Assembly (NCBI GenBank): GCA_029964075.1
Contig: CM057149.1
Span: 506,465 to 570,464 of the forward strand
From: Patiria pectinifera
Lineage: Eukaryota; Echinodermata; Asteroidea; Valvatida; Asterinidae
Length of the DNA stretch: 64,000 nucleotides
Reading direction: 5' to 3'
The notes below the pieces were generated by a model, which saw only the letters and a list, made by a program, of their open reading frames with translations, was not told the DNA's origin and searched no databases. The translations under genes were made by a program, and so were the position numbers. Within the stretch, counting starts at the first letter, position 1. The number at the start of each line of letters is the position of its first letter. Below, piece after piece: positions 4,577 through 43,403 of the stretch.

Positions 4577-4649
4577 CAGTGACAGGATGATGTTGTCCAG
4601 CTCGCACTATAAGCTTGGACCTTACTATCGCCAGACCATGTCCGAATGT

Positions 4650-5210: not shown

Positions 5211-5239
5211 GTCCGAATGTTAAAGAGGCGATAAGTTTG

Positions 5240-13282: not shown

Positions 13283-13348
13283 AGCTGTTCCCAATTTCAA
13301 TTGGGAACAGCTCTTGTTTTCGTTAAAGTTTTTTTTTTTCCTTTTTTT
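13283..13348 (+). mobile_element. Orphan head A (outermost element E1)
   Basis: The 30-bp palindrome with 14-bp arms AGCTGTTCCCAATT is followed by CTTGTTTTCGTTAAAG and a T-tract, then the next head. By bracket matching its body is 30462-31801, so the element has been split by ~17 kb of later insertions. Confidence 0.75.
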
Positions 13349-13404
13349 AGCTGTTCCCAATTTCAATTGGGAACAGCTCTTGTTTTCGTTAAAGTTTTTT
13401 TTTT
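13349..13404 (+). mobile_element. Orphan head A
   Basis: Same head as at 13283. Bracket matching pairs it with the headless body 16344-17681. Confidence 0.75.
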
Positions 13405-14934
13405 AGCTGTTTCGGTGTACACACCGAAACAGCTCTTGTTTCTGTTATTTTTTTTTTTCTCTTTTTTTTTTTTTTCCACTTTTTTCCCCATAGGATAACA
13501 CGTGTTTTCGTTCTACAAGTCACTTTTTGCCTTGTTTCAAATCTGATCGACTTCAAACCTGGCACACAGTTAAACTATCATCTGAAGATGTATGCCGAAA
13601 CTTTTCGTCATGCTGACGTCATCACTTGATTTATTATAGAATTTTGAATATTTAATTTTTCCCATAGACTTTGTACACAGAAATTTAAAAAAAAATGTCA
13701 ATTTTCAGAGGGCATTTTCGACACTTTGCCAGTAATTCATTTACACCAATCTTTGTCCAAGCAATGACCCTAATTCAAACAACATTGTGTAATGATGATG
13801 TCATGATGACGTCATCCGGTGTTTATTTATAGGCAATTAAATTGTGACATTTTTAATATTTAAAAATGCATAAGAAATCAACCGTACGCGTCCGCAGCAT
13901 TCTGTTGCCGGCAAGTGGTAGAGTAGGTTGAGGTCTTTATTTCATTCAGTGTGCGTGAAATCACGTGACCCTTGCTTCCGGTCGAAAAAGGCCAAAACCG
14001 GAAGTGGCTTATTATTTAAAAGTGGTAATAGATATGAACTTGCTTTTAACGGTGTTAGTCTTTTGGCTAATAGTATTCTTTAAATCATCTACCGATGACG
14101 TCATGCAATCTTCGAGCGCCTCTAGTGACAGGTTGAAAATTTTCAAAAATGTATTTTGAATAGATGTCTGTGGCGAAGTTTGTCGGAATCGCCTAAATAT
14201 TGGTGTATATGATGACCTTGACCCACTTAAGACGTGTGCGAAGTTTAAGGCTTATGACGTCATCAGACCGGAAGTTATAATAAAAAGACCCTTTTTCCTA
14301 AGAAAATTCCTGAAAAATCAACCATGGCAGTTTTTATATTAGTTTTTACTTTAATTGTTTATTTAAGGGTAGGTCTAAAATATTTCAAAGCTTCGAGGCA
14401 ATAAGCAAACTCGGACATGCTCTGCGCACGCTTAAAACTTCAGGTTGACAATAACTCTGCTTTAAAACATGCACAGGAAGTGTATGTACTTTTACATGTA
14501 CATGTACATGCACGTACATTGTACATATCGTATGTCAGTCAGCCCGCGTGCAGCGCACGTGTTGCTGAGGTCAAATCCTGTCCACAGTGACCGTTTTAGC
14601 CGATTTCCGGCTAACTTTGACAGATTTTATGTTCATGCATAGTCAAAAATTGCAGTGACGTGACGATGATGTCATCATGTGTTTTATATGAATTATTCAA
14701 TTTTTGGACCTTTTACTCATATTTCATCAATGGAACGTGGTAAATTCGAAATTCTTTTTTGCAAAAGGTTTGTTAGGTCGTAGATAGATACAGAAAATTT
14801 CAAAAATGTGTGCCGTCATCATGACGTCATGAAAAAAATGTGTTTTTTTTACATAGCATAGACACTTTTTGTATAGAATACGCATGTACATGTTCATTCG
14901 TCCTGGATGAAACTCCTTTACGGCAGTCATTAAT
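13405..14934 (+). mobile_element. B-family unit, 3' terminator deleted
   Basis: It starts with the B palindrome and has a B-type body (GGATAACACGTG, ACTTCAAACCTGGCACACA). It closely follows 31857-33434 but stops at GGCAGTCATTAAT, exactly where that unit continues into the inverted head match, hairpin and CTAG. About 45 bp of terminus is therefore missing. Without it the copy should be unable to mobilise. Confidence 0.75.
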
Positions 14935-14947
14935 TTTTTTTTTTTTT

Positions 14948-16343
14948 AGCTGTTCCCAATTTCAATTGGGAACAGCTCTTGTTTTCGTTAAAGTTTTTTT
15001 TTTTCCTTTTTTTTCTTTTTTTTTCTTTTTCCACTTTTCCCATAGGTTTTGTACACGTTTTTATTCTACAAGCCACTTTGGCAATTATTTTAAATCCAAT
15101 CAACTTTAAACTCAGCACAGTAAATAACCATCATTTGAAGATGTATGCCGAAACTTTTCGTCATGCTGACGTCATCACGTGATTTATTATGGAATTTTGA
15201 ATATTTAATTTTCCCCATAGACTTTGTACACAGAATTTTTTTTTAAATGTCAATTTTCAGAGGGCATTTTCGTCTCTTTGCCAGTAATTCATCTACACCA
15301 ATCTTTGTCAAAGCAAAGCTCCTAATTCAAACAACATTGTGTAATGATGACGTCATGATGACGTCATCCGGTGTTTATTTATAGGCAATTAAATTGTGAC
15401 AATTTTAATATTTAAACATGCATAAGAAATCAACCGTACGCGTCCGCAGCATTCTGTTGCCGGCAAGTGGTAGAGTAGGTTAAGGTCTTTATTTCATTCA
15501 GTGTGCGTGAAATCACGTAACCCTTGCTTCCGGTCGAAAAAGGCCAAAACCGGAAGTGGCTTATTATTTGAAAGTGGTAATAGATATGAACTTGCTTTTA
15601 ACGGTGTTAGTCTCTTGGCCGATAGTTTTCTTCAAATCATCTACCGATGACATCATGCAATCTTCGAGCGCCCTCTAGCGACAGTTTAAAAATTTTCAAA
15701 AATGTATTTTGAATAGATGTCTGTGGCGAAGTTTGCCGGAATCGCCTAAATATTGGTGTATATGATGACCTTGATCCACTTAAGACGTGTGCGAAGTTTA
15801 AGGTGTATGACGTCATCAGACCGGAAGTTATAATGAAAAGACTCTTTTTCCTTAGAAAATTCCTTAAAAATCAACCATGGCAGTTTTTATATTAGTTTTT
15901 ACTTTAATTGTCTATTTAAGGGTAGGTCTAAAACATTTCAAAGCTTCAAGGCAAAAATAAGCAAACTTGGACGTGCCCTGCGCACGCTTAAAACTTCAGG
16001 TTGACATTACCTCTGCTTTAAAACATGCACAGGACGTCCACAATGTACATGTACATACACGTACGTTGTACATATCGTATGTCAGTCAGCCCGCGCGCAG
16101 CGCACGTGTTGCTGAGGTCAAATCCTGTCCACAGTGACCGTTTTAGCCGATTTCCGGCTACCTTTGACAGATTTTATGTTCATGCATAGTGAGGGACGTA
16201 TTATTGATAAAAACAAATCATAGTGCGGAAAAGCCCTATCTTCTGTTGCAAACAGACATAGATCTCTACTTATATGTCTATGGGTCCAACAGATAATCAA
16301 TATTGGGAACAGCTCTGTGGTTGTTCACAACCACAATTTCTAG
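14948..16343 (+). mobile_element. Complete A-family element (1396 bp)
   Basis: It has head A, a T-tract, a body with four to six TGACGTCA palindromes, an ATTGGGAACAGCTC inverted head match, the TGTGGTTGT hairpin and CTAG. A former C-type terminus is visible just inside (GCGGAAAAGCC ... GATCTCTAC). Confidence 0.8.
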
Positions 16344-17681
16344 TTTTTTTCTTTTTTTTTCTTTTTCCACTTTTCCCATAGGTTTTGTACACGTTTTTAT
16401 TCTACAAGCCACTTCGGCAATTATTTGAAATCCGATCAACTTTAAACTTGGCATAGTCATTAACAATCATCTGAGGATGTATGCCGAAACTTTTCGTCAT
16501 GCTGACGTCATCACGTGATTTATTATAGAATTTTGAATATTTAATTTTTCCCATAGACTTTGTACACAGATTTTTTTTTTAAAATGTCGATTTTCAGAGG
16601 GCATTTTCAACTCTTTGCCAGTAATTCATTTACACCAATCTTTGTCCAAGCAAAGACCCTAGTTCAAACAACATTGTGTAATGATGACGTCATGATGACG
16701 TCATCCGGTGTTTATTTATAGGCAATTAAATTGTGACACTTTTAATATTTAAAAATGCATAAGAAATCAACCGTACGCGTCCGCAGCATTCTGTTGCCGG
16801 CAAGTGGTAGAGTAGGTTGAGGTCTTTATTTCATTCAGTGTGCGTGAAATCACGTGACCCTTGCTTCCGGTCGAAAAAGGCCAAAACCGGAAGTGGCTTA
16901 TTATTTAAAAGTGGTAATAGATATGAACTTGCTTTCAACGGTGTTAGTCTCTTGGCTGATAGTATTCTTCAAATCATCTACGATGACGTCATGCAATCTT
17001 CGAGCGCCCTCTAGCGACAGGTTGAAAATGTTCAAAAATGTATTTTGAATAGATGTCTGTGGCGAAGTTTGTCGGAATCGCCTAAATATTGGTTTATATG
17101 ATGACCTTGACCCACTTAAGACGTGTGCGAAGTTTAAGGTGCATGACATCATCAGACCGGAAGTTATAATGAAAAGACTCTTTTTCCTTAGAAAATTCCT
17201 GAAAAATCAACCATGTCAGTTTTTATATTAGTTTTTACTTTAATTGTCTATTGAAGGGTAGGTCTAAAACATTTGAAAGCTCTGAGGCAATCAGCAAACT
17301 CGGACATGCCCTGCGCACGCTTAAAACTTCAGGTTGACAATACCTCTGCTTTGAAACATACACAGGACGTCCACAATGTACAGTACATGTACATGCACGT
17401 ACGTTGTACATATCGTATGTCAGTCAGCCCGCGCACAGCGCACGTGTTGCTTAGGTCGAATCCTGTCCACAGTGACCGTTTTACCCGATTTCCGGCTAAC
17501 TTTGACGGATTTTATGTTCATGCATAGTCAGGGACGTATTATTGATAAAAACAAATCATAATGCGGAAAAGCCCTATGTTCTGTTGCAAACAGACATAGA
17601 TCTCTACTTATATGTCTATGGGTTCAACAGATAATCAATATTGGGAACAGCTCTGTGGTTGTTCACAACCACAATTTCTAG
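16344..17681 (+). mobile_element. Headless A body, partner of head 13349
   Basis: It begins directly in the T-tract after the preceding CTAG, then CTTTTTCCACTTTTCCCATAG. It ends in a normal A terminus. No palindrome precedes it. Confidence 0.75.
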
Positions 17682-17693
17682 TTTCCTTTTTTT

Positions 17694-17768
17694 AGCTGTT
17701 CCCAATTTCAATTGGGAACAGCTCTTGTTTTCGTTAAAGTTTTTTTTTTTCCTTTTTTTTTTTTTTTT
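17694..17768 (+). mobile_element. Orphan head A
   Basis: Palindrome plus CTTGTTTTCGTTAAAG and a long T-tract. Bracket matching pairs it with body 27768-29104. Confidence 0.75.
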
Positions 17769-19116
17769 AGCTGTTTCGGTGTACACACCGAAACAGCTCT
17801 TGTTTCTGTTATTTTTTTTTTTCTCTTTTATTTTTCAGACTTTTTTCTCATAGGATAACACGTGTTTTCGTTCTACAAGTCACTTTTTGCTTTTTTTCAA
17901 ATCCGATCGACTTCAAACCTGGCACACACTTAGACCATCATCTGAAGATGTGTGCCGAAACTTTTCGTCATGCTGACGTCATCACGTGATTTATTATAGA
18001 ATTTTGAATATTTAATTTTTCCCATAGACTTTGTACACAGAGATTTAAAAAAAAATGTCAATTTTCAGATGGCATTTTCGACTCTTTGCCAGTAATTCAT
18101 TTACACCAATCTTTGTCCAAGCAAAGACTCTAATTCAAACAACATTGTGTAATGATGACATCATGATGACGTCATCCGGTGTTTATTTATAGGCAATTAA
18201 ATTGTGACAATTTTAATATTTAAAAATGCATAAGAAATCAACCGTACGCGTCCGCAGCATTCTGTTGCCGGCAAGTGGTAGAGTAGGTTGAGGTCTTTAT
18301 TTCATTCAGTGTGCGTGAAATCACGTGACCCTTCCTTCCGGTCGAAACCGGAAGTGCCTAATAATTTGAAAGTGGTAATAGATATGAACTTGCTTTTAAC
18401 GGTGTTAGTCTCTTGTCTGATAGTATTCTTTAAATCATCTACGGATGACGTCATGCAATCTTCGAGCGCCCTCTAGCGACAGGTTGAAAATTTTCAAAAA
18501 TGTATTTTGAATAGATGTCTGTGGCGAAGTTTGTCGGAATCGCCTAAATATTGGTGTATAGAATAACCTTGACCCACTTAAGACGTGTGCGAAGTTTAAG
18601 GTGCATGACGTCATCAGACCGGAAGTTATAATGAAAAGACTCTTTTTCCTTAGAAAATTCCTGAAAAATCAACCATGGCAGTTTTTGTATTAGTTTTTAC
18701 TTTAATTGTCTATTTAAGGGTAGGTCTAAAACATTTCAAAGCTTCGAGGCAATAAGCAAACTTGGACATGCCCTGCGCACGCTTAAAACTTCAGGTTGAC
18801 AATAACTCTGCTTTAAAACATGCACAGTCCACAATGTACATGTACATGCATGTACGTTGTACATATCGTATGTCAGTCAGCCCGCGCGCAGCGCACGTGT
18901 TGCTGAGGTCAAATCCTGTCCACAGTGACCGTTTTAGCCGATTTCCGGCTAACTTTGACAGATTTTATGTTCATGCATAGTCAGGGACGTAGGATAGACA
19001 CTCATTGTATAGAATACGCATGTACATGTTCATTCGCCCTGGATGAAACTCCTTTACGGCAGTCATTAAGAAAACGATCGAAACAGCTCAGTGTTTGTCC
19101 ACAAACACATTTCTAG
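17769..19116 (+). mobile_element. Complete B-family element, near-twin of 29107-30461
   Basis: It has head B and a B terminus (CGAAACAGCTCAGTGTTTGT... CTAG). The body is nearly identical to 29107-30461; two spurious open frames of 72 and 63 codons have identical translations in both. Confidence 0.8.
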
Positions 19117-19124
19117 TTTTTTTT

Positions 19125-19173
19125 GGCTTTTCCGCAAAAAAGCGAAAAAGCCTTTCTTTTTGTTCTCATTTTT
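19125..19173 (+). mobile_element. Orphan head C
   Basis: GGCTTTTCCGC and a near-complement (one substitution, GCGAAAAAGCC) flank an A-run, followed by TTTCTTTTTGTTCTCATTTT. Bracket matching pairs it with 22948-25830. Confidence 0.75.
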
Positions 19174-22100
19174 GGCTTTTCCGCAAAAAAGCGGAAAAGC
19201 CTTTCTTTTTGTTCTCATTTTTTTTCTTTCTTCTTCTTCTTCTTCTTCTTTTTGTCGCCTAAATCCCATAGACTTTGTACACGTTTTTTCTACACGCCAC
19301 TTTTGACATTTATCTTTGTCATACGTCATTCAAAGTTAGCATAGTCATAGTCCTTATAGCAGAGATGTGCCCCGAAGAGTGACGTCATGATGACGTCATC
19401 ACGTGATTTATTATAGATTTTTGAATATTTAATTTTTCCCATAGACTTTGTACACAAAATTTAAAAAAAAATTGTCGGTTTTCAAAGGACATTTTCGACT
19501 GTTTGCCAGTAATTCATTTACACCAAACTTTGTTAAAGCAAAGACCCTAATTCAAACAACATTGTGTAATGATGACGTCATGATGACGTCATCAGGTGTT
19601 TATTTATAGGCAATTAAATTGTGACACTTTTAATATTTAAAAATGCATAAGAAATCAACAGTACGCGTCCGCAGCATTCTGTTGCCGGCAAGTGGTAGAG
19701 TAGGTCAAGGTCTTTATTTCTTTTAGTGTGCGTGAAATCACGTGACCCTTGCTTCCGGTCGAAAAAGGCCCAAACCGGAAGTGGCTTATTATTTAAAAGT
19801 GGTAATAGAAATGAACTTGCTTTCAACGGTGTTAGTCTCTTGGCCAATAGTATTCTTCAAATCATCTACCAATGACGTCATGCAATCTTCCAGCGCCCTC
19901 TAGCGACAGGTTGAAAATTAGCAAAAATGTATTTTGAATAGATGTCTGTGGCGAAGTTTGTCGGAATCGCCTAAATATTGGTGTATATAATGACCTTGAC
20001 CCACTTAAGACGTGTGCGAAGTTTTAGGCGAATGACGTCATCAGACCGGAAGTTATAATGAAAAGACCCTTTTTCATTTGAAAATTCCTGAAAAATCAAC
20101 CATGGCAGTTTTTATATTTGTTTTTACTTTAATTGTTGATTGAAGGGTAGGTCTAAAACATTTCAAAGTTTCCAGGCGATAAGCGAACTCGAACATACCC
20201 TGCGCACGCTTAAAACTTCACCTTGACAATACCTCTGCTTCAAAACATGCACAGGACAGGACGTCCACAATGTACATGTACATGCACGTACGTTGTACAT
20301 AGGCACATACATCGTATGTCAGTCAGCCTGCAGCGCACGTGTTGCCGAGGTCAAATCCTGTCCACAGTGACCGTTTTAGCCGATTTTCGGCTAACTTTGA
20401 CAGATTTTATGTTCCTGCATGCGCATAGACAGTGACGTATTATAGCACTTTTGGCATTAATCTTTGTCAGATATCATTGAAAGTTGGCATAAGCATAGTC
20501 CCTATAGCCAAGATGTGTCCCGAAGAGTGACGTCATGGTGACGTCATCAAGTGATTTATTATGGATTTATGAATAATTAATTTTTCTCATAGACTTTGTA
20601 CACAGCTTTCTCCACAAGTATTTCCCTATACAAACTGATATATCGTACTGAGTAGTTCTGAACTTCGGCTGAGAATTACTATGAGAAGGAAAAAGAAATC
20701 GTATTTTTTTACGCCTGTCATTTGATTGAAAATATTCCCAAGAGTTAGAATAGCAAGTAATATTTTATAAAAATGTTTCAGTTTAAAGGAAAATCACGCA
20801 TTTAAAGGTGCAGTTTTTCTGCTGTGGGATTTTTAACCTATTGACTTTCCCCCTTTTTAAGCCACCATTTTCATAACTTGGCGATCTGGAATCGTCATCA
20901 AAGTTACAGCCAAGGAAGATCCTCATACAAAAATTATGCCAAGACTACGACATCATGATGACGTCATCTTCAAGTGATTTATTATGGATTCATGAATAAT
21001 TAATTTTTCTCATAGACTTTGTACACAGCTTTTTCCACAAGTCTTTTCCTATACAACACTGATATATCTTACTGAGTAATTCTACGGAAGCTTAAAGTGA
21101 CCATTCGAGTTTCCACGTTTCGAGATAATTTATCTCGAACGACGGAATACTGAGATAAAAACATGTCTTTTCGTGATATCGCATCTCGGAAAACGTCTTT
21201 CCCGAATTCGTATCTCAGAAAGACGTCTTTGCCAAATATCACATCACGGAATGACATCTTTCCCAGAAATCGTATCTCAGAAGGCGTCTTTCCCTGATGT
21301 CGTATCTCGGAAAGACATCTTCTCCTGATATCGTATCTCAGAAAGACGTCTTTCCTTGATATTGTATCTCGGAAAGGCGTCATTCCCTGATATCGTTTCT
21401 CAGAAAGGCGTCTTTCCGACATACGATATCAAGGATAGACGTCTTTCCGAGATGATATATGAGAGAAAGGCGTCTTAAGATGTTATATCAGGTGAAAGCG
21501 TCTTTTCAAGATAAGATATTAGAGAAAGAACGTCTTTCCGAGATGAAAGACGTCTTTCGAGATACAATATCAGGAAGCGTCTTTCTGAGATAAGATATGA
21601 GAGAAAGGCGTCTTTCCGCCAGGGAAAGACGTCTTTCCGGGATATCATATCAAGGAAAGGCGTCTTTCTGAGATGATATCAGAAAGGCGTCTTTCAGAAT
21701 ACGATATCAAGGAAAGGCGTCTTTCCGAGATGATATAAGAAAGACGTCTTTCCGAGATGTTATATCAGGGAAAGACGTCTTTCCGAGATACGATATCAGG
21801 AAAAGACGTCTTTCCGAGATACCATATCAGGGAAAGACGTCTTTCCAAGACACGATATCAGGGAAACACGTCATAAATATCTTAGTAATCCATCTTTCCG
21901 AGATAAATCATCAAAGAAACGTGGAAACTCGAATGGTCACTTTAAGCTTCCGTAGAATTACTATGAGAAGGAAAAAGAAATCGTATTTTTTTACGTTAAC
22001 CATTTGATTGAAAACATTCTCAAGAGTCAGAATATCAAGTAATATTTTATAAAAATGTTTCAGTTTAAAGGCAAATCACGTATTTAAAGGTGCAGTTTTT

Positions 22101-22947
22101 CTGCTGTGGGATTTTTAACCCATTGACTTTGTACACGTTTTCAAGCCACCATTTTTATAACTTGGCGATCTGGAATCGTCATCAAAGTTACAGCCAAGGA
22201 AGACCCTCATACAAAAATTATGCCAAGACTATGACTTCACGATGACGTCATCACCTATTTTTTTTATTGATTTTTGAAAATTTACGTACATATTGTGAAG
22301 TCTTATATCTACAGAAATGTAAGTCCGATTGGGTTGAAACTTGGTATGTGGCTATACCAGGAAGTGTTATAGATTAAAAATGAGGTGACGTCATGATGAC
22401 GTCATCCTGAGATTTTATATGAATATTTATTTTTTGACCTTTAAGCCATATCTCCCGAATGCAACATGCAAAATGCAAAATTCTTTGCATTTGGTCTGTT
22501 ATGTAATAGCTATTCGCACAAAACTTGAAAAATGTGTGGCGTCATCATGGCGTCATCAAAATGCCATTTTCAAAACTCATATAAGGAAAGGTCAATTGTC
22601 ATGAAACTTGGTGGGTAGGTAGTTAATCATACTAGTATGCAAAGTTCGAAATGACGTCACGATGACGTCATCAAAAATTTAAAAATAATTGTCGATTTTC
22701 AAAGTGCGTTTTCGACTCTTGCCAGTAATTTATTTAGATCACTCTTTGTCCAAGCAAACACCTTGTACACACGCACATACATCGTATTGCCGAGGTGAAA
22801 TCCTGTCCACAGTGACCGTTTTAGCTGATTTTTCGGCTAACTTTGACAGATTTTATGTTCATGCATATTCAGGGCATATTATTGATAAAAAAAAATCATA
22901 ATGCGGAAAAGCCCTATGTTCTGTTGCAAACAGACATAGATCTCTAG
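19174..22947 (+). mobile_element. Complete C-family element carrying a palindromic insertion
   Basis: It has head C (perfect 11-bp arms), a T/CTT-tract and a C-type body starting TCGCCTAAATCCCATAG. Extra modules follow (20440-22700). The terminus is GCGGAAAAGCC, hairpin, GATCTCTAG. An 888-bp giant palindrome is inserted at 21075-21962 and is absent from the otherwise collinear unit 22948-25830. Confidence 0.75.
21075..21962. mobile_element. Giant palindromic element built from AAAGACGTCTTT repeats
   Basis: Perfect 39-bp terminal inverted repeats lie at 21083-21121 and 21916-21954 (starting TACGGAAGCTTAAAGTGACC). They extend imperfectly to AGTAATTCT / AGAATTACT. The interior is a ~30-33 bp tandem repeat containing AAAGACGTCTTT and GATATCAGG. 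It reads one way in the left half and as its complement in the right half, with the turn near 21410-21430. No credible protein is encoded. Confidence 0.75.
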
Positions 22948-25830
22948 TTTTTCTTTCTTCTTCTTCTTCTTTTTGTCGCCAAAATCCCATAGACTTTGTA
23001 CACGTTTTTTCTCAGTGCCACTTTTGGCATTAATCTTTGTCATACATCATTCAAAGTTAGCATAGTCATAGTCCTTATAGCAGAGATGTGCCCCGAAGAG
23101 TGACGTCATGATGACGTCATCGACTAATTTATTATAGATTTTTGAATATTTGATTTTTCCCATAGACTTTGTACACAAAATTTTAAAAAAAATTGTCGGT
23201 TTTCAAAGGACATTTTCGACTGTTTGCCAGTAATTCATGTACACCAAACTTTGTTAAAGCAAAGACCCTTATTCAAACAACATTGTGTAATGATGACGTC
23301 ATGATGACGTCATCCTGTGTTTATTTATAGGCAATTAAATTGTGACACTTTTAATATTTAAAAATGCATAAGAAATCAACCGTACGCGTCCGCAGCATTC
23401 TGTTGCCGGCAAGTGGTAGAGTAGGTTGAGGTCTTCATTTCATTCAGTGTGCGTGCAATCACGTGACCCTTGCTTCCGGTCGAAAAAGGCCCAAACCGGA
23501 AGTGGCTTATTATTTGAAAGTGGTAATAGAAATGAACTTGCTTTCAACGGTGTTAGTCTCTTGGCCGATAGTATTCTTCAAATCATCTACCGATGACGTC
23601 ATGCAATCTTCGAGCGCCCTCTAGCGACAGGTTGAAAATTAGCAAAAATGTATTTTGAATAGATGTCTGTGGCGAAGTTTGTCGGAATCGCCTAAATATT
23701 GGTGTATATGATGACCGTGACCCACTTAAGACGTGTGCGAAGTTTTAGGCGAATGACGTCATCAGACCGGAAGTTATAATAAAAAGACCCTTTTTCATTT
23801 GAAAATTCCTGAAAAATCAACCATGGCAGTTTTTATATTTGTTTTTACTTTAATTGTCGATTGAAGATTAGGTCTAAAACATTTCAAAGTTTCGAGGCGA
23901 TAAGCGAACTCGAACATACCCTGCGCACGCTTAAAACTTCACGTTGACAATACCTCTGCTTCAAAACATGCACAGGACAGGACGTCCACAATGTACATGT
24001 ACATGCACGTACCTTGTACATAGGCACATACATCGTATGTCAGTCAGCCTGCAGCGCACGTGTTGCTGAGATCAAATCCTGTCCACAGTGACCGTTTTAG
24101 CCGATTTTCGGCTAACTTTGACAGATTTTATGTTCATGCATGCGCATAGACAGGGACGTATTATAGCACTTTTGGCATTAATCTTTGTCAGATATCATTG
24201 AAAGTTGGCATAAGCATAGTCCCTATAGCAAAGATGTGTCCCGAAGAGTGACGTCATGGTGACGTCATCAAGTGATTTATTATGGATTTATGAATAATTA
24301 ATTTTTCTCATAGACTTTGTACACAGCTTTCTCCACAAGTCTTTCCCTATACAACACTGATATATCTTACTGAGTAGTTCTGAACTTCGGCTGAGAATTA
24401 CTATGAGAAGGAAAAAGAAATCGTATATTTTTACGCCTGTCATTTGATTGAAAATATTCCCAAGAGTTTGAATAGCAAGTAATATTTTATAAAAATGTTT
24501 CAGTTTAAAGGAAAATCACGCATTTGAAGGTGCAGTTTTTCTGCTGTGGGATTTTTAACCTATTGATTTTGTATACGTTTTCAAGCCACCATTTTTATAA
24601 CTTGGCGATCTGGAATCGTCATCAAAGTTACAGCCAAGGAAGACCCTCATACAAAAATTATGCCAAGACTATATGACATCATGATGACGTCATCATTAAG
24701 TGATTTATTATGGATTCATGAATAATTAATTTTTCTCATAGACTTTGTACACATCTTTTTCCACAAGTCTTTTCCTATACAACACTGATATATCTTACTG
24801 AGTAGTTCTGAACTTGGCCGAGAATTACCATGAGAAGGAAAAAGAAATCGTATTTTTTACGTTTGTCATTTGATTGAAAATATTCCCAAGAGTCAGAATA
24901 TCAAGTAATATTTCATAAAAATGTTTCAGTTTGAAGGCAAATCACGTATTTAAAGGTGCAGTTTTTGTGCTGTGGGATTTTAACCACATTTAGTCGTTAC
25001 CCGTTTTTAAGCCAGCATTTTTATAACTTGGCGATCTGGAATCGTTATCAAAGTTACAGCCAAGGTAGACCCTCATACAAAAATTATGCCAAGACTATGA
25101 TGTCACGATGACGTCATCACCTAATTCGTTAATTGATTTTGAAACATTTACGTACTTATTGTGAAGTCTTATATCTACAGAAATGTAAGTCCGATTGGGT
25201 TGAAACTTGGTATGTGGCTATACCAGGATGGGTTATAGATTAAAAATGAGGTGACGTCATGATGGCGTCATCCTGAGATTTTATATGAATATTAATTTGT
25301 TTGGACCTTTTAGCCATATCTCCCGAGCGAAACATGCAAAATGCAAAATTCTTTTTGCATTTGGTCTGTTATGTAATAGCTATTCGCACAAAACTTGGAA
25401 AATGTGTGACGTCATCATGACGTCATCAAAATGCGATTTTTCAAAACTCATATAAGGAAAGGTCCATTGTCATGAAACTTGGTGGGTAGGTAGTTAATCA
25501 TACTAGTATGCAAAGTTCGAAGTGACGTCAGGATGACGTCATCAAAAAAATTAAAAATATATTTGTCGATTTTCAAAGTGCGTTTTCGACTCTTTGCCAG
25601 TAATTTATTTATAATTTATTTATCACTCTTTGTCCAAGCAAAGACCTTGTACACACGCACATACATCGTATTGCCGAGAACAAATCCTGTCCACTGTGAC
25701 CGTTTTAGCCGATTTTCGGCTAACTTTGACAGATGTTATGTTCATGCATATTCCGGTCATATTATTGATCAAAAAAAATTATCATGCGGAAAAGCCCTAT
25801 GTTCTGTTGCAAACAGACATAGACCTCTAG
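22948..25830 (+). mobile_element. Headless C body, partner of head 19125
   Basis: It starts TTTTTCTTTCTTCTTC right after the preceding CTAG and has the same C body and extra modules as 19174-22947, minus the giant palindrome. It ends GCGGAAAAGCC, hairpin, GACCTCTAG. Confidence 0.75.
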
Positions 25831-25837
25831 TTTTTTT

Positions 25838-29104: not shown

Positions 29105-29106
29105 TT

Positions 29107-30461: not shown

Positions 30462-31801
30462 TTTTTTCTTCTTTTTCTTTTTCCACTTTTCCCCATAGGT
30501 TTTGTACACGTTTTTATTCTACAAGCCACTTTGGCAATTATTTTAAATCCGATCAACTTTAAACTCAGCATAGTTATTAACCATCATCTGAGGATGTATG
30601 CCGAAACTTTTTGTCATGCTGACGTCATCACGTGATTTATTATAGAATTTTGAATATTTAATTTTTCCCATAGACTTTGTACACAGAATTTTAAAATAAA
30701 ATGTCAATTTTCAGAGGGCATTTTCGACTCTTTGCTAGTAATTCATTTACACCAATCTTTGTCCAAGCAAAGACCCTTACTCAAACAACATTGTGTAATG
30801 ATGATGTCATGATGACGTCATCCGGTGTTTATTTATAGGCAATTAAATTGTGACACTTTTAATATTTAAAACTGCATAAGAAATCAACCGTACGCGTCCG
30901 CAGCATTCTGTTGCCGGCAAGTGGTAGAGCAGGTTAAGGTCTTTATTTCATTCAGTGTGCGTGAAATCACGTGACCCTTGCTTCCGGTCGGAAAAGGCCA
31001 AAACCGGAAGTGGCTTATTATTTAAAAGTGGTAATAGATATGAACTTGCTTTTAACGGTGTTAGTCTCTTGGCTGATAGTATTCTTCAAATCATCTACCG
31101 ATGACGTCATGCAATCTTCGAGCGCCCTCTAGCGACAGGTTGAAAATTTTCAAAAATGTATTTTGAATAGATGTCTGTGGCGAAGTTTGTCGGAATCGCC
31201 TAAATATTGGTGTATATGATGACCTTGACCCACTTCAGACGTGTGCGAAGTTTAAGGTATATGACGTCATCAGACCGGAAGTTATAATGAAAAGACGCTT
31301 TTTCCTTAGAAAATTCCTGAAAAATCAACCATGACAGTTTTTATATTAGTTTTTACTTTAATTGTCTATTTAAGGGTAGGTCTAACACATTTCAAAGCTT
31401 CGAGGCAATAAGCAAACTCGGACATGCCCTGCGCACGCTTAAAACTTCAGGTTGACAATACCTCTGCTTTAAAAAATGCACAGGACGTCCACAATGTACA
31501 TGTACAAGCATGTTCATTATACGTTGTACACATCGTATGTCAGTCAGCCCGCGCGCAGCGCACGTGTTGGTGAGGTCAAATCCTGTCCACAGTGACCGTT
31601 TTAGCCGATTTCCTGCTAACTTTGACAGATTTTATGTTCATGCATAGTGATAGTCAGGGACGTTGATAAAAACAAATCATAATGCGGAAAGCCCTATCTT
31701 CTGTTGCAAACAGACATAGATCTCTACTTATGTGTCTGTGGGTCCAACAGATAATCAATATTGGGAACAGCTCTGTGGTTGTTCACAACCACAATTTCTA
31801 G
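30462..31801 (+). mobile_element. Headless A body, partner of head 13283 (end of E1)
   Basis: It begins in a T-tract after CTAG and ends with an A terminus. CTAG-TT-AGCTG forms a direct head-to-tail junction with the second outer element. Confidence 0.75.
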
Positions 31802-31803
31802 TT

Positions 31804-31856
31804 AGCTGTTCCCAATTTCAATTGGGAACAGCTCTTGTTTTCGTTAAAGTTTTTTT
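31804..31856 (+). mobile_element. Orphan head A (outer element E2)
   Basis: Complete palindrome, CTTGTTTTCGTTAAAG and a short T-tract. Bracket matching pairs it with body 39376-40719. Confidence 0.75.
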
Positions 31857-33434
31857 AGCTGTTTCGGTGTACACACCGAAACAGCTCTTGTTTCTGTTTT
31901 TTTTTTTTTTCTCTTTTTTTTTTTTTTCCACTTTTTTTCCCATAGGATAACACGTGTTTTCGTTCTACAAGTCACTTTTTGCCTTGTTTCAAATCTGATC
32001 GACTTCAAACCTGGCACACAGTTAAACTATCATCTGAAGATGTATGCCGAAACTTTTCATCATGCTGACGTCATCACTTGATTTATTATAGAATTTTGAA
32101 TATTTTATTTTTCCCATAGACTTTGTACACAGAAATTTAAAAAAAAATGTCAATTTTCAGAGGGCATTTTCGACACTTTGCCAGTAATTCATTTACACCA
32201 ATCTTTGTCCAAGCAATGACCCTAATTCAAACAACATTGTGTAATGATGATGTCATGATGACGTCATCCGGTGTTTATTTATAGGCAATTAAATTGTGAC
32301 ATTTTTAATATTTAAAAATGCATAAGAAATCAACTGTACGCGTCCGCAGCATTCTGTTGCCGGCAAGTGGTAGAGTAGGTTGAGGTCTTTATTTCATTCA
32401 GTGTGCGTGAAATCACGTGACCCTTGCTTCCGGTCGAAAAAGGCCAAAACCGGAAGTGGCTTATTATTTAAAAGTGGTAATAGATATGAACTTGCTTTTA
32501 ACGGTGTTAGTCTTTTGGCTAATAGTATTCTTTAAATCATCTACGGATGACGTCATGCAATCTTCGAGCGCCCTCTAGCGACAGGTTGAAAATTTTTAAA
32601 AATGTATTTTGAATAGATGTCTGTGGCGAAGTTTGTCGGAATCGCCTAAATATTGGTGTATATGATGACCTTGACCCACTTAAGACGTGTGCGAAGTTTA
32701 AGGCTTATGACGTCATCAGACCGGAAGTTATAATAAAAAGACCCTTTTTCCTAAGAAAATTCCTGAAAAATCAACCATGGCAGTTTTTATATTAGTTTTT
32801 ACTTTAATTGTTTATTTAAGGGTAGGTCTAAAATATTTCAAAGCTTCGAGGCAATAAGCAAACTCGGACATGCTCTGCGCACGCTTAAAACTTCAGGTTG
32901 ACAATAACTCTGCTTTAAAACATGCACAGGAAGTGTATGTACTTTTACATGTACATGTACATGCACGTACATTGTACATATCGTATGTCAGTCAGCCCGC
33001 GTGCAGCGCACGTGTTGCTGAGGTCAAATCCTGTCCACAGTGACCGTTTTAGCCGATTTCCGGCTAACTTTGACAGATTTTATGTTCATGCATAGTCAAA
33101 AATTGCAGTGACGTGACGATGATGTCATCATGTGTTTTATATGAATTATTCAATTTTTGGACCTTTTACTCATATTTCATCAATGGAACGTGGTAAATTC
33201 GAAATTCTTTTTTGCAAAAGGTTTGTTAGGTCGTAGATAGATACAGAAAATTTCAAAAATGTGTGCCGTCATCATGACGTCATGAAAAAAATGTGTTTTT
33301 TTTTACATAGCATAGACACTTTTTGTATAGAATACGCATGTACATGTTCATTCGTCCTGGATGAAACTCCTTTACGGCAGTCATTAATAAAACGGTCGAA
33401 ACAGCTCAGTGTTTGTCCACAAACACATTTCTAG
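31857..33434 (+). mobile_element. Complete B-family element, near-twin of 13405-14934
   Basis: B head and B terminus intact. It includes the extra block with GATGATGTCATCATG, a decayed TGACGTCA pair shared with its twin. Confidence 0.8.
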
Positions 33435-33449
33435 TTTTTTCCTTTTTTT

Positions 33450-33523
33450 AGCTGTTCCCAATTTCAATTGGGAACAGCTCTTGTTTTCGTTAAAGTTTTT
33501 TTTTTTCCTTTTTTTTTCTTTTT
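33450..33523 (+). mobile_element. Orphan head A
   Basis: Palindrome plus T-tract followed at once by another head A. Bracket matching pairs it with 36635-37975. Confidence 0.75.
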
Positions 33524-34926
33524 AGCTGTTCCCAATTTCAATTGGGAACAGCTCTTGTTTTCGTTAAAGTTTTTTTTTTTCCTTTTTTTTTTTCTTCTTT
33601 TTCTTTTTCCACTTTTCCCCATAGGTTTTGTACACGTTTTTATTCTACAAGCCACTTTGGCAATTATTTTAAATCCGATCAACTTTAAACTCAGCATAGT
33701 TATTAACCATCATCTGAGGATGTATGCCGAAACTTTTCGTCATGCTGACGTCATCACGTGATTTATTATAGAATTTTGAATATTTAATTTTTCCCATAGA
33801 CTTTGTACACAGAATTTTAAAAAAAAATGTCAATTTTCAGAGAGCATTTTGGACTCTTTGCCAGTAATTCATTTACACCAATCTTTGTCCAAGCAAAGAC
33901 CCTTACTCGAACAACATTGTGTAATGATGACGTCATGATGACGTCATCCGGTGTTTATTTATAGGCAATTAAATTGTTACACTTTTAATATTTAAAAATG
34001 CATAAGAAATCAACCGTACGCGTCCGCAGCATTCTGTTGCCAGCAAGTGGTAGAGTAGGTTGAGGTCTTTATTTCATTCAGTGTGCGTGAAATCACGTGA
34101 CCCTTGCTTCCGGTCGAAAAAGGCCAAAACCGGAAGTGGCTTATTATTTGAAAGTGGTAATAGATATGAACTTGCTTTTAACGGTGTTAGTCTCTTGGCT
34201 GATAGTATTCTTCAAATCATCTACCGATGACGTCATGCAATCTTCGAGCGCCCTCTAGCGACAGGTTGAAAATTTTCAAAAATGTATTTTGAATAGATGT
34301 CTGTGGCGAAGTTTGTTGGAATCGCCTAAATATTGGTGTATATGATGACCTTGACCCACTTAAGACGTTTGCGAAGTTTAAGGTGTATGACGTCATCAGA
34401 CCGGAAGTTATAATGAAAAGACCCTTTTTCCTTAGAAAATTCCTGAAAAATCAACCATGGCAGTTTTTATATTAGTTTTTACTTTAATTGTCTATTTAAG
34501 GGTAGGTCTAAAACATTTCAAAGCTTCGAGGCAATAAGCAAACTCGGACATGCCCTGCGCACGCTTAAAACTTCAGGTTGACAATACCTCTGCTTTAAAA
34601 CATGCACAGACGTCCACAATGTACATGTACATGCACGTACATTGTACGTTGTACATATCGTGTGTCAGTCAGCCCGCGCGCAGCGCACGTGTTGCTGAGG
34701 TCAAATCCTGTGCACAGTGACCGTTTTAGCCGATTTCCTGCTAACTTTGACAGATTTTATGTTCATGCATAGTGATAATCAGGGACGTTGATAAACACAA
34801 ATCATAATGCGGAAAGCCCTATCTTCTGTTGCAAACAGACATAGATCTCTGCTTATATGTCTATGGGTCCAACAGATAATCAATATTGGGAACAGCTCTG
34901 TGGTTGTTCACAACCACAATTTCTAG
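33524..34926 (+). mobile_element. Complete A-family element (1403 bp)
   Basis: Head A, standard A body and A terminus, with the vestigial C-type end (GATCTCTGC here) inside. Confidence 0.8.
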
Positions 34927-34936
34927 TTTTTTTTTT

Positions 34937-36634
34937 AGCTGTTTCGGTGTACACACCGAAACAGCTCTTGTTTTTGTTATTTTTTTTTTTCTCTTTTTTT
35001 TTTTTTTCTTCCACTTTTTTTCCCATAGGATAACACGTGTTTTCGTTCTACAAGGCACTTTTGGACTTTTTTCAAATCCGATCGACTTCAAACCTGGCAC
35101 ACACTTAAACCACCATCTAAAGATGTATGCCGAATCATGACGTCATCATGACGTCATCACGTGTCACGTGCCGTCATCCTAACAGAGCATACTTTAAGGT
35201 CCTATATCTACAGAACCGGAAGTCCGATTTGGTTCAAACTTGGTATGCAAGTATTCCGGGACGTGTTATAGACAAAAATTGCAGTGACGTCATGATGACG
35301 TCATTGTGTGATTTTATATAAATTATTCAATTTTTGGACCTTTTACTCATATCTCATAAACGAAATGTGGTAAATTCGAAATTCTTTTTGTAACATGTTT
35401 GTTAGGTCATAGATAGATGCACAAAATTTGGTAAAATGTGTGACGTCATCATGACGTCATCAAAAACGTGATTTTTTGATTCACATATAAGGATATGTCC
35501 GATCGTTATGAAACTTAGTGGGTAGGTAGGTATAGATAGCAGCATTCGAAATCTGAAGTGACGTCATCATGACGTCATCATCTGATTTTTTATGAATTTT
35601 TCAAATTTTAATATTTTCTCAAATTTTGCAAAAATTATATAAAATACGGTCCGATCGACTTCAAACGTGACACACACTTATACAACCATTTAAAGATGTA
35701 TGCCGAATCATGACGTCATCATGACGTCATCACGTGTCATATGATGTCATCCTAAAAGTGCATACTTTAAGGCCCTCTATCTACAGAACCGGAGGTGCAA
35801 TTGGGTTCAAACTTGGTATGCAGGTATTCCGGGACGTGTTATAGACAAAAGTTGCAGTGACGTCACGATGACGTCATCATTTGATTTTATATAAATTATG
35901 CAATTTTTTTACCTTTTACTCATATCTCATTAATGGAACATGGTAAATTCAAAATTCTTGTTGTAACATGTTATGCAGGTGAAACATAGATGCACAAAAT
36001 TTCATAAAATGTGTGACGTCATCATGACATCATCAAAAACGTGATTTTGTGATTCACATATAAGGGTATGTCCGATCGTTATGAAACTTGGTGGGTATGT
36101 AGGTATAGATAAAAGCATTCAAAATCTGAAGTGACGTCATCATAACGTCATCGTCTGATTTTTAATGCATTTTTCAAATTTCAATATTTTCTTCAAATTT
36201 TGCAAAATTATATAAAATACGGTCCGATCGACCTCAGAGAACCTGATGTCCGATTGGGTTCAATGTCGGTATGCAGATATTCCAGGAAGTGTTATAGACA
36301 AAAATTGCAGTGACGTCACGATGACGTCATCATGTGATTTTATGTGAATTATTCAATTTTTGGACCTTTTACTCATATCTCATCAATGGAACGTGGTTAA
36401 TTCGAAATTCTTTTTTGCAAAAGGTTTTCTAGGTCGTAGATAGATACAGACAATTTCAAAAAATGTGTGCCGTCATCATGAAGTCATGAAAAACGTGTTG
36501 TTTTTTTTTTACATAGGATGGACACTTTTTGTATAGAATACGCATGTACATTCGACCTGGATGAAACTCCTTTACGGCAGTCATTAATAAAACGGTCGAA
36601 ACAGCTCAGTGTTTGTCCACAAACACATTTCTAG
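34937..36634 (+). mobile_element. B-terminus element with a modular CRE-repeat body
   Basis: It has a B head and B terminus, but the usual core is absent. Instead the body is a run of modules, each with a TGACGTCA pair or derivative, arranged as a 574-bp higher-order tandem repeat (from 35137 and 35711, then a shortened third copy). Confidence 0.75.
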
Positions 36635-37975
36635 TTTTTTCTTTTTTTTTCTTTTTCCACTTTTCCCCATAGGTTTTGTACACGTTTTTATTCTACAAGC
36701 CACTTTGGCAATTATTTTAAATCCGATCAACTTTAAACTCAGCATAGTTATTAACCATCATCTGAGGATGTATGCCGAAACTTTTCGTCATGCTGACGTC
36801 ATCACGTGATTTATTACAGAATTTTGAATATTTAATTTTTCCCATAGACTTTGTACACAGAAATTTAAAAAAAAATGTTAATTTTCAGAGGGCATTTTCG
36901 ACTCTTTGCCAGTAATTCATTTACACCAATCTTTGTCCAAGCAAAGACCCTAATTCAAACAACATTGTGTAATGATGACGTCATGATGACGTCATCCGGT
37001 GTTTATTTATAGGCAATTAAATTGTTACACTTTTAATATTTAAAAATGCATAAGAAATCAACCGTACGCGTCCGCAGCATTCTGTTGCCAGCAAGTGGTA
37101 GAGTAGATTGAGGTCTTTATTTCATTCAGTGTGCGTGAAATCACGTGACCCTTGCTTCCGGTCGAAAAAGGCCAAAACCGGAAGTGGCTTATTATTTAAA
37201 AGTGGTAATAGATATGAACTTGCTTTTAACGGTGTTAGTGTCTTGGCCGATAATATTCTTCAAATCATCTACCGATGACGTCATGCAATCTTCGAGCGCC
37301 CTCAAGCGACAGGTTGAAAATTTTCAAAAATGTATTTTGAATAGATGTCTGTGGCGAAGTTTGTCGGAATCGCCTAAATATTGGTGTATATGATGACCTT
37401 GACCCACTTAAGACGTGTGCGAAGTTTAAGGTGTATGACGTCATCAGACCGGAAGTTATAATGAAAAGACTCTTTTTCCTTAGAAAATTCCTGAAAAATC
37501 AACCATGGCAGTTTTTATATTAGTTTTAACTTTAATTGTCTATTGAAGGGTAGGTCTAAAACATTTCAAAGCTTCGAGGCAATAAGCAAACTCGGGCATG
37601 CCCTGCGCACGCTTAAAACTTCAGGTTGACAATACCTCTGCTTTAAAACATGCACAGGACGTCCACAATGCACATGTACATGCACGTACATTGTACGTTG
37701 TACATATCGTATGTCAGTCAGCCCACGCACAGCGCACGTGTTGCTGAGGTCAAATCCTGTCCACAGTGACCGTTTTAGCCGATTTCCGGCTAACTTTGAC
37801 AGATTTTATGTTCATGCATAGTGATAGTCAGGGACGTTGATGAAAACAAATCATAATGCGGAAAGCCCTATCTTCTGTTGCAAACAGACATAGATCTCTA
37901 CTTATATGTCTATGGGTCCAACAGATAATCAATATTGGGAACAGCTCTGTGGTTGTTCACAACCACAATTTCTAG
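36635..37975 (+). mobile_element. Headless A body, partner of head 33450
   Basis: The T-tract starts immediately after the preceding CTAG. Standard A body and terminus. Confidence 0.75.
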
Positions 37976-37977
37976 TT

Positions 37978-39375
37978 AGCTGTTCCCAATTTCAATTGGG
38001 AACAGCTCTTGTTTTCGTTAAAGATTTTTTTTTTTCTTTTTTTTTTTTTTATTTTTCCACTTTTCCCCATAGGTTTTGTACACGTTTTTATTCTACAAGC
38101 CACTTTGGCAATTATTTTAAATCCGATCAACTTTAAACTCAGCATAGTTATTAACCATCATCTGAGGATGTATGCCGAAACTTTTCGTCATGCTGACGTC
38201 ATCACGTGATTTATTATATAATTTCGAATATTTAATTTTTCCCATAGACTTTGTACACAGAAATTTAAAAAAAAATGTCAATTTTCAAAGGGCATTTTTG
38301 ACTCTTCGCCAGTAATTCATTTACACCAATCTTTGTCCAAGCAAAGACTCGTACTGAAACAGCATTGTGTAATGATGACGTCATGATGACGTCATCCGGT
38401 GTTTATTTATAGGCAATTAAATTGTGACACTTTTAATATTTAAAAATGCATAAGAAATCAACCGTACGCGTCCGCAGCATTCTGTTGCCGGCAAGTGGTA
38501 GAGTAGGTTGAGGTCTTTACTTCATTCAGTGTGCGTGAAATCACGTGACCCTTGCTTCCGGTCGAAAAAGGCCAAAACCGGAAGTGGCTTATTATTTAAA
38601 AGTGGTAATAGAAATGAACTTGCTTTCAACGGTGTTAGTCTCTTGGCTGATAGTATTCTTCAAATCATCTACCGATGACGTCATGCAATCTTCGAGCGCC
38701 CTCTAGCGACAGGTTGAACATTTTCAAAAATGTATTTTGAATAGATGTCTGTGGCGAAGTTTGTCGGAATCGCCTAAATATTGGTGTATATGATGACCTT
38801 GACCCACTTAAGCCGTGTGCGACGTTTAAGGTGTATGACGTCATCAGACCGGAAGTTATAATGAAAAGACCCTTTTTCCTTAGAAGATTCCTGAAAAATC
38901 AACCATGGCAGTTTTTATATTACTTTTTACTTTAATTGTCTATTTAAGGGTAGGTCTAAAATAATTCAAAGCTTCGAGGCAATAAGCAAACTCGGACATG
39001 CCCCGCGCACGCTTGAAACTTCAGGTTGACAATACCTCTGCTTTAAAAAATGCACAGGACGTCCACAATGTACATGTACATGCACGTACATTGTACGTTG
39101 TACATATCGTATGTCAGTCCGCCCGCGCGCAGCGCACGTGTTGCTGAGGTCAAATCCTGTCCACAGTGACCGTTTTAGCAGATTTCCGGCTAACTTTGAC
39201 AGATTTTATGTTCATGCATAGTGAGAGTCAGGGACGTTGTTAAAAACAAATCATTATGCGGAAAGCCCTATCTTCTGTTGCAAACAGACATAGATCTCTT
39301 CTTATATGTCTATGGGTCCAACAGATAATCAATATTGGGAACAGCTCTGTGGTTGTTCACAACCACAATTTCTAG
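37978..39375 (+). mobile_element. Complete A-family element (1398 bp)
   Basis: Head A directly follows CTAG-TT. Standard A body and A terminus. Confidence 0.8.
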
Positions 39376-40719
39376 TTTTTTCTTCTTTTTCTTTTTCCAC
39401 TTTTCCCCATAGGTTTTGTACACGTTTTTATTCTACAAGCCACTTTGGCAATTATTTTAAATCCGATCAACTTTAAACTCAGCATAGTTATTAACCATCA
39501 TCTGAGGATGTATGCCGAAACTTTTCGTCATGCTGACGTCATCACGTGATTTATTATAGAATTTTGAATATTTAATTTTTCCCATAGACTTTGTACACAG
39601 AATTTTAAAAAAAAATGTCAATTTTCAGAGGGCATTTTCGACTCTTTGCTAGTAATTCATTTACACCAATCTTTGTCCAAGCAAAGACCCTTACTCAAAC
39701 AACATTGTGTAATGATGATGTCATGATGACGTCATCCGGTGTTTATTTATAGGCAATTAAATTGTGACACTTTTAATATTTAAAAATGCATAAGAAATCA
39801 ACCGTACGCGTCCGCAGCATTCTGTTGCCGGCAAGTGGTAGAGTAGGTTAAGGTCTTTATTTCATTCAGTGTGCGTGAAATCACGTGACCCTTGCTTCCG
39901 GTCGAAAAAGGCCAAAACCGGAAGTGGCTTATTATTTGAAAGTGGTAATAGATATGAAATTGCTTTTAACGGTGTTAGTCTCTTGGCTGATAGTATTCTT
40001 CAAATCATCTACCGATGACGTCATGCAATCTTCGAGCGCCCTCTAGCAACAGGTTGAAAATTTTTAAAAATGTATTTTGAATAGATGTCTGTGGCGAAGT
40101 TTGTCGGAATCACCTAAATATTGGTGTATATGATGACCTTGACCCACTTAAGACATGTGCGAAGTTTAAGGTCTATGACGTCATCAGACCGGAAGTTATA
40201 ATGAAAAGACCCTTTTTCCTTAGAAAATTCCTGAAAAATCAACCATGGCAGTTTTTATATTAGTTTTTACTTTAATTGTCTATTGAAGGGTAGGTCTAAA
40301 ACATTTGAAAGCTCTGAGGCAATAAGCAAACTCGGACATGCCCTGCGCACGCTTAAAACTTCAGGTTGACAATAGCTCTGCTTTGAAACATGCACAGCCC
40401 GTCTACAATGTACAGTACATGTACATGTACATGCACGTACGTTGTACATATCGTATGTCAGTCAGCCCGCGCACAGCGCACATGTTGCTTAGGTCAAATC
40501 CTGTCCGCAGTGACCGTTTTAGCCGATTTCCGGCTAACTTTGACAGATTTTATGTTCATGCATAGTCAGGGACGTATTATTGATAAAAACAAATCATAAT
40601 GCGGAAAAGCCCTATCTTCTGTTGTAAACAGACATAGATCTCTACTTATATGTCTATGGGTCCAACAGATAATCAATATTGGGAACAGCTCTGTGGTTGT
40701 TCACAACCACAATTTCTAG
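39376..40719 (+). mobile_element. Headless A body, partner of head 31804 (end of E2 and of the block)
   Basis: The T-tract starts after CTAG and the body ends in an A terminus at CTAG followed by TTCTCTC, where unrelated DNA resumes. This CTAG is the right edge of the whole block. Confidence 0.75.
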
Positions 40720-43133: not shown

Positions 43134-43139
43134 CACAGT

Positions 43140-43403
43140 ATGTCTGAGATTGAGCGTTGTCTTGGCAGTCTGCTGGCAGGATCTCCTCCTTCTGTTCCCG
43201 TTCCAAAATATGATTTCTTCTTCAAAGCTCCTGCCAAGACTCATCAGCGCCCTCTTGTACTGAAAGACAACCTATCAATAATAGTTGCTGCTGTGATTTT
43301 TGATCAGGAGGAAAGAGTAGTATTGATTCAAGAAGCTAAAGCATCATGTCGTGGTCGCTGGTATCTACCAGCAGGACGGATAGAGCCCAATGAAACACTG
43401 CAG
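43140..43403 (+). CDS. NUDT18: NUDT18-type Nudix hydrolase, coding exon 1
   Basis: Residues 1-88. Start MSEIERCLGSLLAG was chosen because it lies just after a good acceptor (TTTTGTCTCAACAG) and matches the length of the family. The exon encodes the first part of the Nudix fold: LSIIVAAVIFDQEERVVLIQ is the first core strand pair, and WYLPAGRIEPNETLQ opens the Nudix box with G79 and E85. It ends at CAG|GTAATG in phase 0, so the Nudix box is split by intron 1. NUDT18 (MTH3) is known in mammals as a pyrophosphatase acting on 8-oxo-dGDP, 8-oxo-GDP and related oxidised diphosphates. Identification rests on the shared order QEAK..CRG.WYLPAGR.EP.ET in the mammalian family. The substrate in this organism is inferred. 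Confidence 0.92.

Follow-up and report, generated by a model that had tools for sequence, protein, structure and literature searches.

The window analysed here, 64,000 nucleotides of contig CM057149.1 of the asteroid Patiria pectinifera (assembly GCA_029964075.1, positions 506,465 to 570,464), contains at 13283-40719 a 27-kb block of related mobile elements that fall into three families, which we call A, B and C. The element plan comprises a 5' hairpin (the head), a tract of T's broken by C's, a body, a 3' copy of one hairpin arm, a 3' hairpin and a terminal CTAG. Sixteen heads are recognizable by an exact or near-exact hairpin (eight A, six B and two C) and fifteen tails end in CTAG (eight A, five B and two C). 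All of these lie on the plus strand, and the five end motifs tested gave no match on the minus strand. The sixteen elements form a cluster, and we consider it probable that most of them entered between the T's of the tract behind the 5' head of an older copy. Such an event divides the older copy into an orphan head with the left piece of its tract and a headless body with the right piece, and the block contains six of each.

The left edge is formed by two orphan A heads side by side, one with a left tract of T11CCT7 (13283-13348) and one with T10 and no CC (13349-13404). They are followed by a B element with head and body and no B tail (13405-14933), by a complete A element (14948-16343; tract T11CCT8CT9CT5) and by a headless A body (16344-17681) whose right tract reads T7CT9CT5. 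An isolated fragment of A tract, T3CCT7 (17682-17693), lies between the CTAG of that body and the next orphan A head (17694-17768; left tract T11CCT16). This head hosts the insertions that begin at 17769, 19125 and 25838, and its body resumes at 27768-29104 with the right tract T4CT9CT5. The first of the three is a complete B element (17769-19116) and the third is the longest of the complete B elements (25838-27767). The second is itself a host, made up of an orphan C head with one arm mismatch and a left tract ending in CAT5 (19125-19173), a complete C element (19174-22947) and the matching headless C body with the right tract T5CT3(CT2)4CT5 (22948-25830). A further complete B element (29107-30461), which starts TT after the preceding CTAG, and a headless A body (30462-31801; right tract T6CT2CT5CT5) end this part of the block.

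The remainder opens with an orphan A head and T7 (31804-31856), the second outermost host, whose body lies at the far right edge (39376-40719; right tract T6CT2CT5CT5). Between the two are a complete B element (31857-33434), an isolated tract fragment T6CCT7 (33435-33449) with a CTAG on its left and a new head on its right, and an orphan A head with the left tract T11CCT9CT5 (33450-33523). That head hosts a complete A element (33524-34926; tract T11CCT11CT2CT5CT5) and a complete element with B ends (34937-36634), and its own body follows at 36635-37975 (right tract T6CT9CT5). The rightmost insertion is a complete A element (37978-39375) with a deviating tract, (A)T11CT14AT5, that has no CC. 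These positions of heads and body ends agree with those given in the earlier note on this DNA, as does the list of six orphan heads and six headless bodies. Their types match, and read as opening and closing brackets they form a stack that closes with five A pairs and one C pair.

Probable insertion into the T-tracts

All twelve breakpoints of the divided elements lie in the T-rich tract behind the head: the six orphan heads break off inside it, and the six headless bodies resume inside it. In addition, TT precedes each of the 16 heads and follows each of the 15 tails. The two stranded CC-bearing fragments, at 17682-17693 and 33435-33449, favour repeated insertion into one tract, as head loss does not predict them. 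When the insertions are removed from host 31804, its pieces rejoin as T7+T6CCT7+T2+T6CT2CT5CT5, or T13CCT15CT2CT5CT5, which is the tract of the complete copy at 33524 with exactly two T's added per insertion (three insertions), each time on the correct side of the CC. The C host at 19125 rejoins to CAT10, compared with CAT8 in the complete C copy, which amounts to two added T's for its one insertion; it has four CTT repeats where the complete copy has six. The earlier claim that newcomers enter the T-tract behind older heads is therefore well borne out by the twelve breakpoints, the rejoined tract of 31804, the two fragments and the TT at all ends.

Counted from the bracket parse, there are 14 nested insertions in six hosts, 13 of them in A hosts and one in the C host, and all 14 lie in tracts. 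The tract holds approximately 0.33 of the T4/A4 sites of an A element (three copies) and approximately 0.06 of those of a C element (one copy); for T6/A6 sites the shares rise to approximately 0.75 in the three complete A copies and 0.14 in the one C copy. If all sites were equal, the chance that 14 of 14 insertions fall in tracts would be about 4e-8 on T4/A4 sites and about 0.003 on T6/A6 sites. On the latter figure, a preference for long T-runs may therefore be nearly enough, and an extra pull of the head need not be assumed. The B elements at 17769 and 29107, which are 99.5% identical over 1265 aligned columns, sit in different hosts with different neighbours, and these different surroundings favour independent insertion.

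The same point of the tract, directly after CCT7, was entered by three A copies (13348/13349, 17693/17694 and 33449/33450), and the string CTAG-TT-AGCTG is exact at three junctions (29104, 31801 and 37975). The recurrent entry points and identical junctions hint at fixed positions within the tract.

Landmarks, divergence and rival explanations

Self-nesting is thus supported, but the nest is not the perfectly balanced one, closing without remainder, that the earlier note described. Several observations weigh against a simple nest. The B element at 13405 breaks off at CATTAA (14933), where T14 follows, and it has no arm copy, hairpin or CTAG, so that heads and tails are unequal, 16 to 15 overall and six to five in family B. 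Under the nest parse the CC landmark occurs once in each of the A hosts 17694, 31804 and 33450, twice in 13283 and not at all in 13349; host 33450 also carries one extra single C. Relative to the complete copy at 14948, hosts 17694 and 33450 have 27 and 22 extra T's, far above two per insertion. The B elements at 13405 and 31857, 99.4% identical over 1448 aligned columns, are each preceded by an orphan A head and followed by a further A head. The divergence of A bodies does not fall with depth in the nest. Lastly, no mobilizing protein was found: the three open reading frames of at least 100 amino acids that overlap the block gave no Pfam match at an E value of 0.01.

The order of the pieces is less telling than it appears. 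Given these 12 tokens (five A pairs and one C pair), 792 of the 33264 possible arrangements (2.4%) are balanced, so balance by itself is modest evidence, and we rejected the balance of counts as a proof. Moreover, brackets of the same type will parse any balanced string as a nest, which leaves the order weak and makes the CC landmark the finer test. The earlier statement that the nesting order never fails does not survive that test at the two outermost left heads. By counts, 13283 is the outermost host with its body at 30462-31801, and 13349 hosts the body at 16344-17681; by landmarks, the CC of 13283 better suits the body at 16344-17681, and the tract of 13349 would suit the one at 30462-31801. 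Exchanging the two pairs gives every A host one CC and turns the tract of 13349 into T10+T3CCT7+T2+T6CT2CT5CT5, or T13CCT15CT2CT5CT5, identical to that of 31804. However, the exchanged pairs cross, and insertion alone cannot produce crossing.

We conclude that the outermost pair of the block has probably been disturbed. A stretch of 12 nt (TTTCCTTTTTTT) may have been duplicated, with the CC of 13349 lost together with the tail of the B element at 13405; two identical heads 66 nt apart may have swapped tracts; or a multi-headed unit may have moved in, as is described for Fusarium in the part of PMC5148889 compared here. The excess of T's in 17694 and 33450 would mean either that tract lengths have drifted or that insertions bring variable numbers of T's, and variable numbers of border T's are reported in the consulted sections of PMC4067079. 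A strict rule of two T's per insertion, which is exact in 31804 and in the C host 19125 under the nest parse and not in the other hosts, was dropped. Of the two outermost elements named earlier, 31804-40719 holds, with a tract that rejoins exactly, and 13283-31801 is in conflict with the CC landmarks. The insertion history of the block is readable as a partial order only, and brackets of one type cannot be paired with certainty.

The expectation that outer bodies should be more diverged also fails. Among the eight A bodies, depth is unrelated to distance from the consensus (Spearman rho 0.0) and to singletons (0.23, p 0.58), and divergence is 2.65% in hosts and 2.38% in leaves, or approximately 2.5% from the consensus overall. 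The ends of the elements behave differently. All eight copies have identical A heads (46 nt) and identical final 50 nt of the A tail, and the last 57 alignment columns have a nucleotide diversity (pi) of 0.000; the divergence of the bodies would predict about 20 changes (21.0 for 46+57 nt). The tails come in two versions over the last 60 nt and five over the last 80 nt. These invariant ends indicate that most body divergence likely predates insertion, and depth against divergence was therefore dropped as a clock. Judged from these sequences, the differences among bodies were likely in large part inherited from different source copies, unless the ends have been homogenized, and the nest as a whole is likely young, with which the two near-identical B pairs agree. 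The earlier note had held that divergence unrelated to depth would favour tandem duplication with random head loss; such independence is what we find in form, but it loses its force where the clock is invalid. More generally, insertions of this kind may be poorly dated by the divergence of their bodies.

A tandem array is one rival. Rolling-circle read-through, by missed termination or a circular intermediate, could have produced a row of copies from which deletions between T-runs later removed heads and bodies. Tandem arrays of Helitrons in bat and silkworm, ascribed to bypassed termination, and clustering of the non-autonomous Helentrons known as HINEs are mentioned in portions of PMC4067079, and the single orientation of all copies, the T-runs flanking every head, the three CTAG-TT-AGCTG junctions and the independence of divergence from depth would all fit such an array. 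However, A, B and C alternate and the A bodies differ by 2.3-5.9%, so this is not one replicated unit, and random deletion predicts neither equal numbers of type-matched orphans (the 2.4% balance above) nor isolated CC fragments; we regard this origin as quite unlikely. Collapse or mis-joining of near-identical copies in the assembly is very improbable. Assembly is difficult for sixteen similar copies that meet at homopolymers, and the first two heads do look as if their tracts had been swapped, but most bodies differ at many sites, CTAG and heads are exact at the junctions, and landmarks carry on across long inserts.

Composite transposition is also unlikely. Multi-headed units, running from an outer head to the first tail or from an inner head to an outer tail, would have moved in from other nests, so that some orphan heads never had a local body. 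Fusarium elements with multiple 5' termini and one 3' end, in which the first 31-85 nt are repeated, are explained likewise in the passages of PMC5148889 compared, and such transposition could help to account for the crossed CC landmarks at 13283/13349. The B elements at 13405 and 31857, each behind an orphan A head and before an A head, resemble copies of a two-headed A-B unit; given their like surroundings, a shared composite or a block copy is possible for this pair. Yet the tract pieces before them differ (T10 and T7), headless bodies would need a second cause, and the tract of host 31804 rejoins exactly. Block duplication as a general source of near-identical B copies was set aside, because neighbours differ for 17769 and 29107, although they do not clearly do so for 13405 and 31857.

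Element class and known relatives

The elements are likely non-autonomous and Helentron/Helitron2-like, that is of HINE type, with a Helitron-like CTAG end; this assignment is made from sequence features. As defined in the relevant part of PMC4067079, HINEs have a 12-15 bp palindromic 5' subterminal inverted repeat (subTIR), an inverted copy of it approximately 38-60 bp from the 3' end, a 5-10 bp palindrome 8-35 bp from the 3' end, a T-rich target with at least TT on each side and no target duplication, and an autonomous partner with Rep/helicase, an endonuclease and matching ends. In the block, the 5' head stems are palindromic as in HINEs, with 13 bp in A and B and 11 bp in C (folding energies of -13.8, -14.7 and -13.4 kcal/mol for one A, B and C copy each). 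The inverted subTIR copy is present near the 3' end in 8/8 A tails, 5/6 B elements and 2/2 C tails, the one B element without it being the tail-less one at 13405, and the right arm of the head always recurs at the 3' end of its own family, A with A, B with B and C with C. In one tail per family this copy starts 42 (A), 38 (B) and 45 (C) nt and stops 29, 28 and 34 nt before the end, so that the HINE range is reached only when measured from the far edge of the copy. The 3' hairpin stems, of 8 bp in A and 7 bp in B and ending 8 nt before the 3' end, also correspond to HINEs; that of C is imperfect in the one copy folded, and the tail hairpins only modestly beat shuffled sequences (z of -2.9, -1.7 and -2.3 for A, B and C, one copy each). 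The T-rich target with TT on both sides fits as well, and there is one possible 12-nt duplication, around 13349-17681.

Membership of the canonical Helitrons was rejected. The 3' hairpin followed by CTAG, in 15/15 tails, does match the hairpin and CTRR of canonical Helitron1, but at the 5' end (T)AGCTG or (T)GGCTT stands in place of its 5' TC, and the flanks are T-T throughout, so that the elements enter between T's instead of at A^T. In contrast to HINEs, the block elements end in CTAG, and such ends are assigned to canonical Helitrons (CTRR) and to proto-Helentron-Pi in the consulted text of PMC4067079. In what was compared of that paper and of the work on Crassostrea gigas HINEs (PMC7492417), HINEs and DINE-1 share with our elements the palindromic 5' subTIR, the arm copy near the 3' end, the short 3' hairpin, a microsatellite-like stretch behind the 5' end, T-rich or TT targets, variable border T's and the lack of a clear target duplication. 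Unlike in those elements, the microsatellite here is itself the T-tract, and hence the preferred target, and the passages compared from the two papers include no nest of 14 events in HINE tracts.

The Helitron2-type FoHeli elements of Fusarium, as presented in the sections of PMC5148889 compared, are similar: FoHeli1 and 2 bear a hairpin at either end, a 5' arm recurs near the 3' end, self-insertion occurs, and several heads stand in a row. That material covers a single nested pair, an insertion lying 2 bp from another copy and short 5' duplications, as well as a three-copy tandem in Metarhizium. The block differs in its six hosts and 14 insertions, all in the T-tract, and in the presence of the matching headless bodies; FoHeli1 and 2 favour TNAT sites and not T-runs. 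The principle of Helitron self-insertion is thus already known; a 14-event nest in tracts did not occur in the portions of the literature compared. In a blowfly study of 600 kb of DNA (PMC3630058), the excerpt used counts three Helitron insertions as nested, of which two lie within a different element. Among the matches listed (titles and abstract starts) for Helitron nesting, self-insertion and landing in T-runs there was no such block, which does not show its absence from print, and four head words looked for in papers gave no matches.

We propose that a rolling-circle enzyme made elsewhere would move these elements, with a preference for long T-runs on one strand; a strand-specific target of this kind would give all copies one orientation. 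Since the tract holds about three quarters of the T6/A6 sites in complete A copies, arrival would usually split head from body within the tract, adding about two T's. By bearing the target that its relatives favour, an element could draw them to itself and so spare host DNA, and large clusters of a single orientation, with a history that can be read in part, could build up. Orphan heads and headless bodies in genome annotations may be the halves of one interrupted element. Alu elements land in each other's poly-A tails, and miniature inverted-repeat transposable elements (MITEs) form multimers; there, too, the homopolymer or target motif of one element serves as a landing site for its relatives. 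The enzymes are different, however, and here the T-tract lies behind the 5' head, so that newcomers cut head from body.

Relations among the families and the surroundings of the block

The bodies of the three families have a core in common; they are 94.1-97.7% identical within A, 85.3-87.1% between A and C, and 87.4-90.7% between A and B when the element at 34937 is left out. In a tree built from fifteen bodies out of the 16 (the first 1200 letters of each, again without 34937), C stands apart and A and B form two groups, with weaker support for A (91/91) than for B (100/99). All eight A copies contain, directly inward of the A tail, a dead C tail made up of arm, hairpin and ATCTCT, with its CTAG replaced by CTAC (six copies), CTGC (one) or CTTC (one). 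A C tail is partly kept inside the B element at 25838 (C arm at 27107), and by arm search the other five B copies show none.

The dead C tail in every A copy, together with the match of arm and tail in each family, suggests that a family originates when an element becomes enclosed by the ends of another. We tentatively hypothesize, with somewhat more doubt than confidence, that an element's own T-tract acts as a landing strip and that the resulting matryoshka nests serve as a family factory: A and B would be C-type elements re-wrapped in matching head-tail shells, and recombination between tracts would swap both ends at once, which is impossible by end-bypass alone. For instance, a C-type element might enter the tract of an A-shelled copy; if the C head were then lost between two T-tracts, the structure of A would result. 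Nests would in this manner create new families whenever a composite keeps its outer ends and loses its inner ones. If true, this would explain both the joint change of the two ends of rolling-circle elements and the birth of new non-autonomous Helentron-like families. No intermediate of such shell replacement was found in the window.

The element at 34937 has a head identical to other B heads over 36 nt and a tail identical over the last 36 nt, and by pairwise identity and self-comparison its body is mostly unlike other B bodies (51.5-52.6% identity to A). It largely consists of repeats that also occur in the inner part of C and the 3' part of the B element at 25838, and appears to be another mosaic of shell and filling. 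Within the complete C element, diverged self-copies of core parts pair its positions 125-283 with 1273-1431 and 1165-1247 with 3610-3693; C looks as if two bodies had been joined, and A resembles its first body joined to the tail of the second. This C element also holds a foldback insert of 888 bp (21075-21962), whose terminal inverted repeats are perfect over 20 bp and whose internal ones are long and imperfect. The insert is absent from the sister C body at 22948-25830, where approximately 28 nt stand in its place.

With eight of the 16 elements or bodies as BLAST queries, the other 36.6 kb of the window yielded no further copy: five gave only matches of 28-35 nt at two palindromic microsatellite-like spots and three gave none. 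T-runs of at least six number 46 in those 36.6 kb, and A-runs of at least six number 30. Exact-word searches with one head word in virus contigs and one body word in prokaryote contigs returned no matches, which carries little weight. To the right of the block, a NUDIX exon at 43092-43421 (Pfam PF00293, 33.2 bits) likely belongs to a host gene. A repeat very roughly 1 kb long occurs twice, at 47419-48223 and 54568-55532 (approximately 7.3 kb apart), with similar translations on both strands, and a minisatellite-like repeat at 59624-60212 is open in three frames, its translation repeating VLMAEYSCGYLCSWQSTH. On the other side of the block, a possible further mobile family is represented at 4290-5580 by several palindromes whose arms bear CTAG (around CCTAGAACTATGAGGCTCC).

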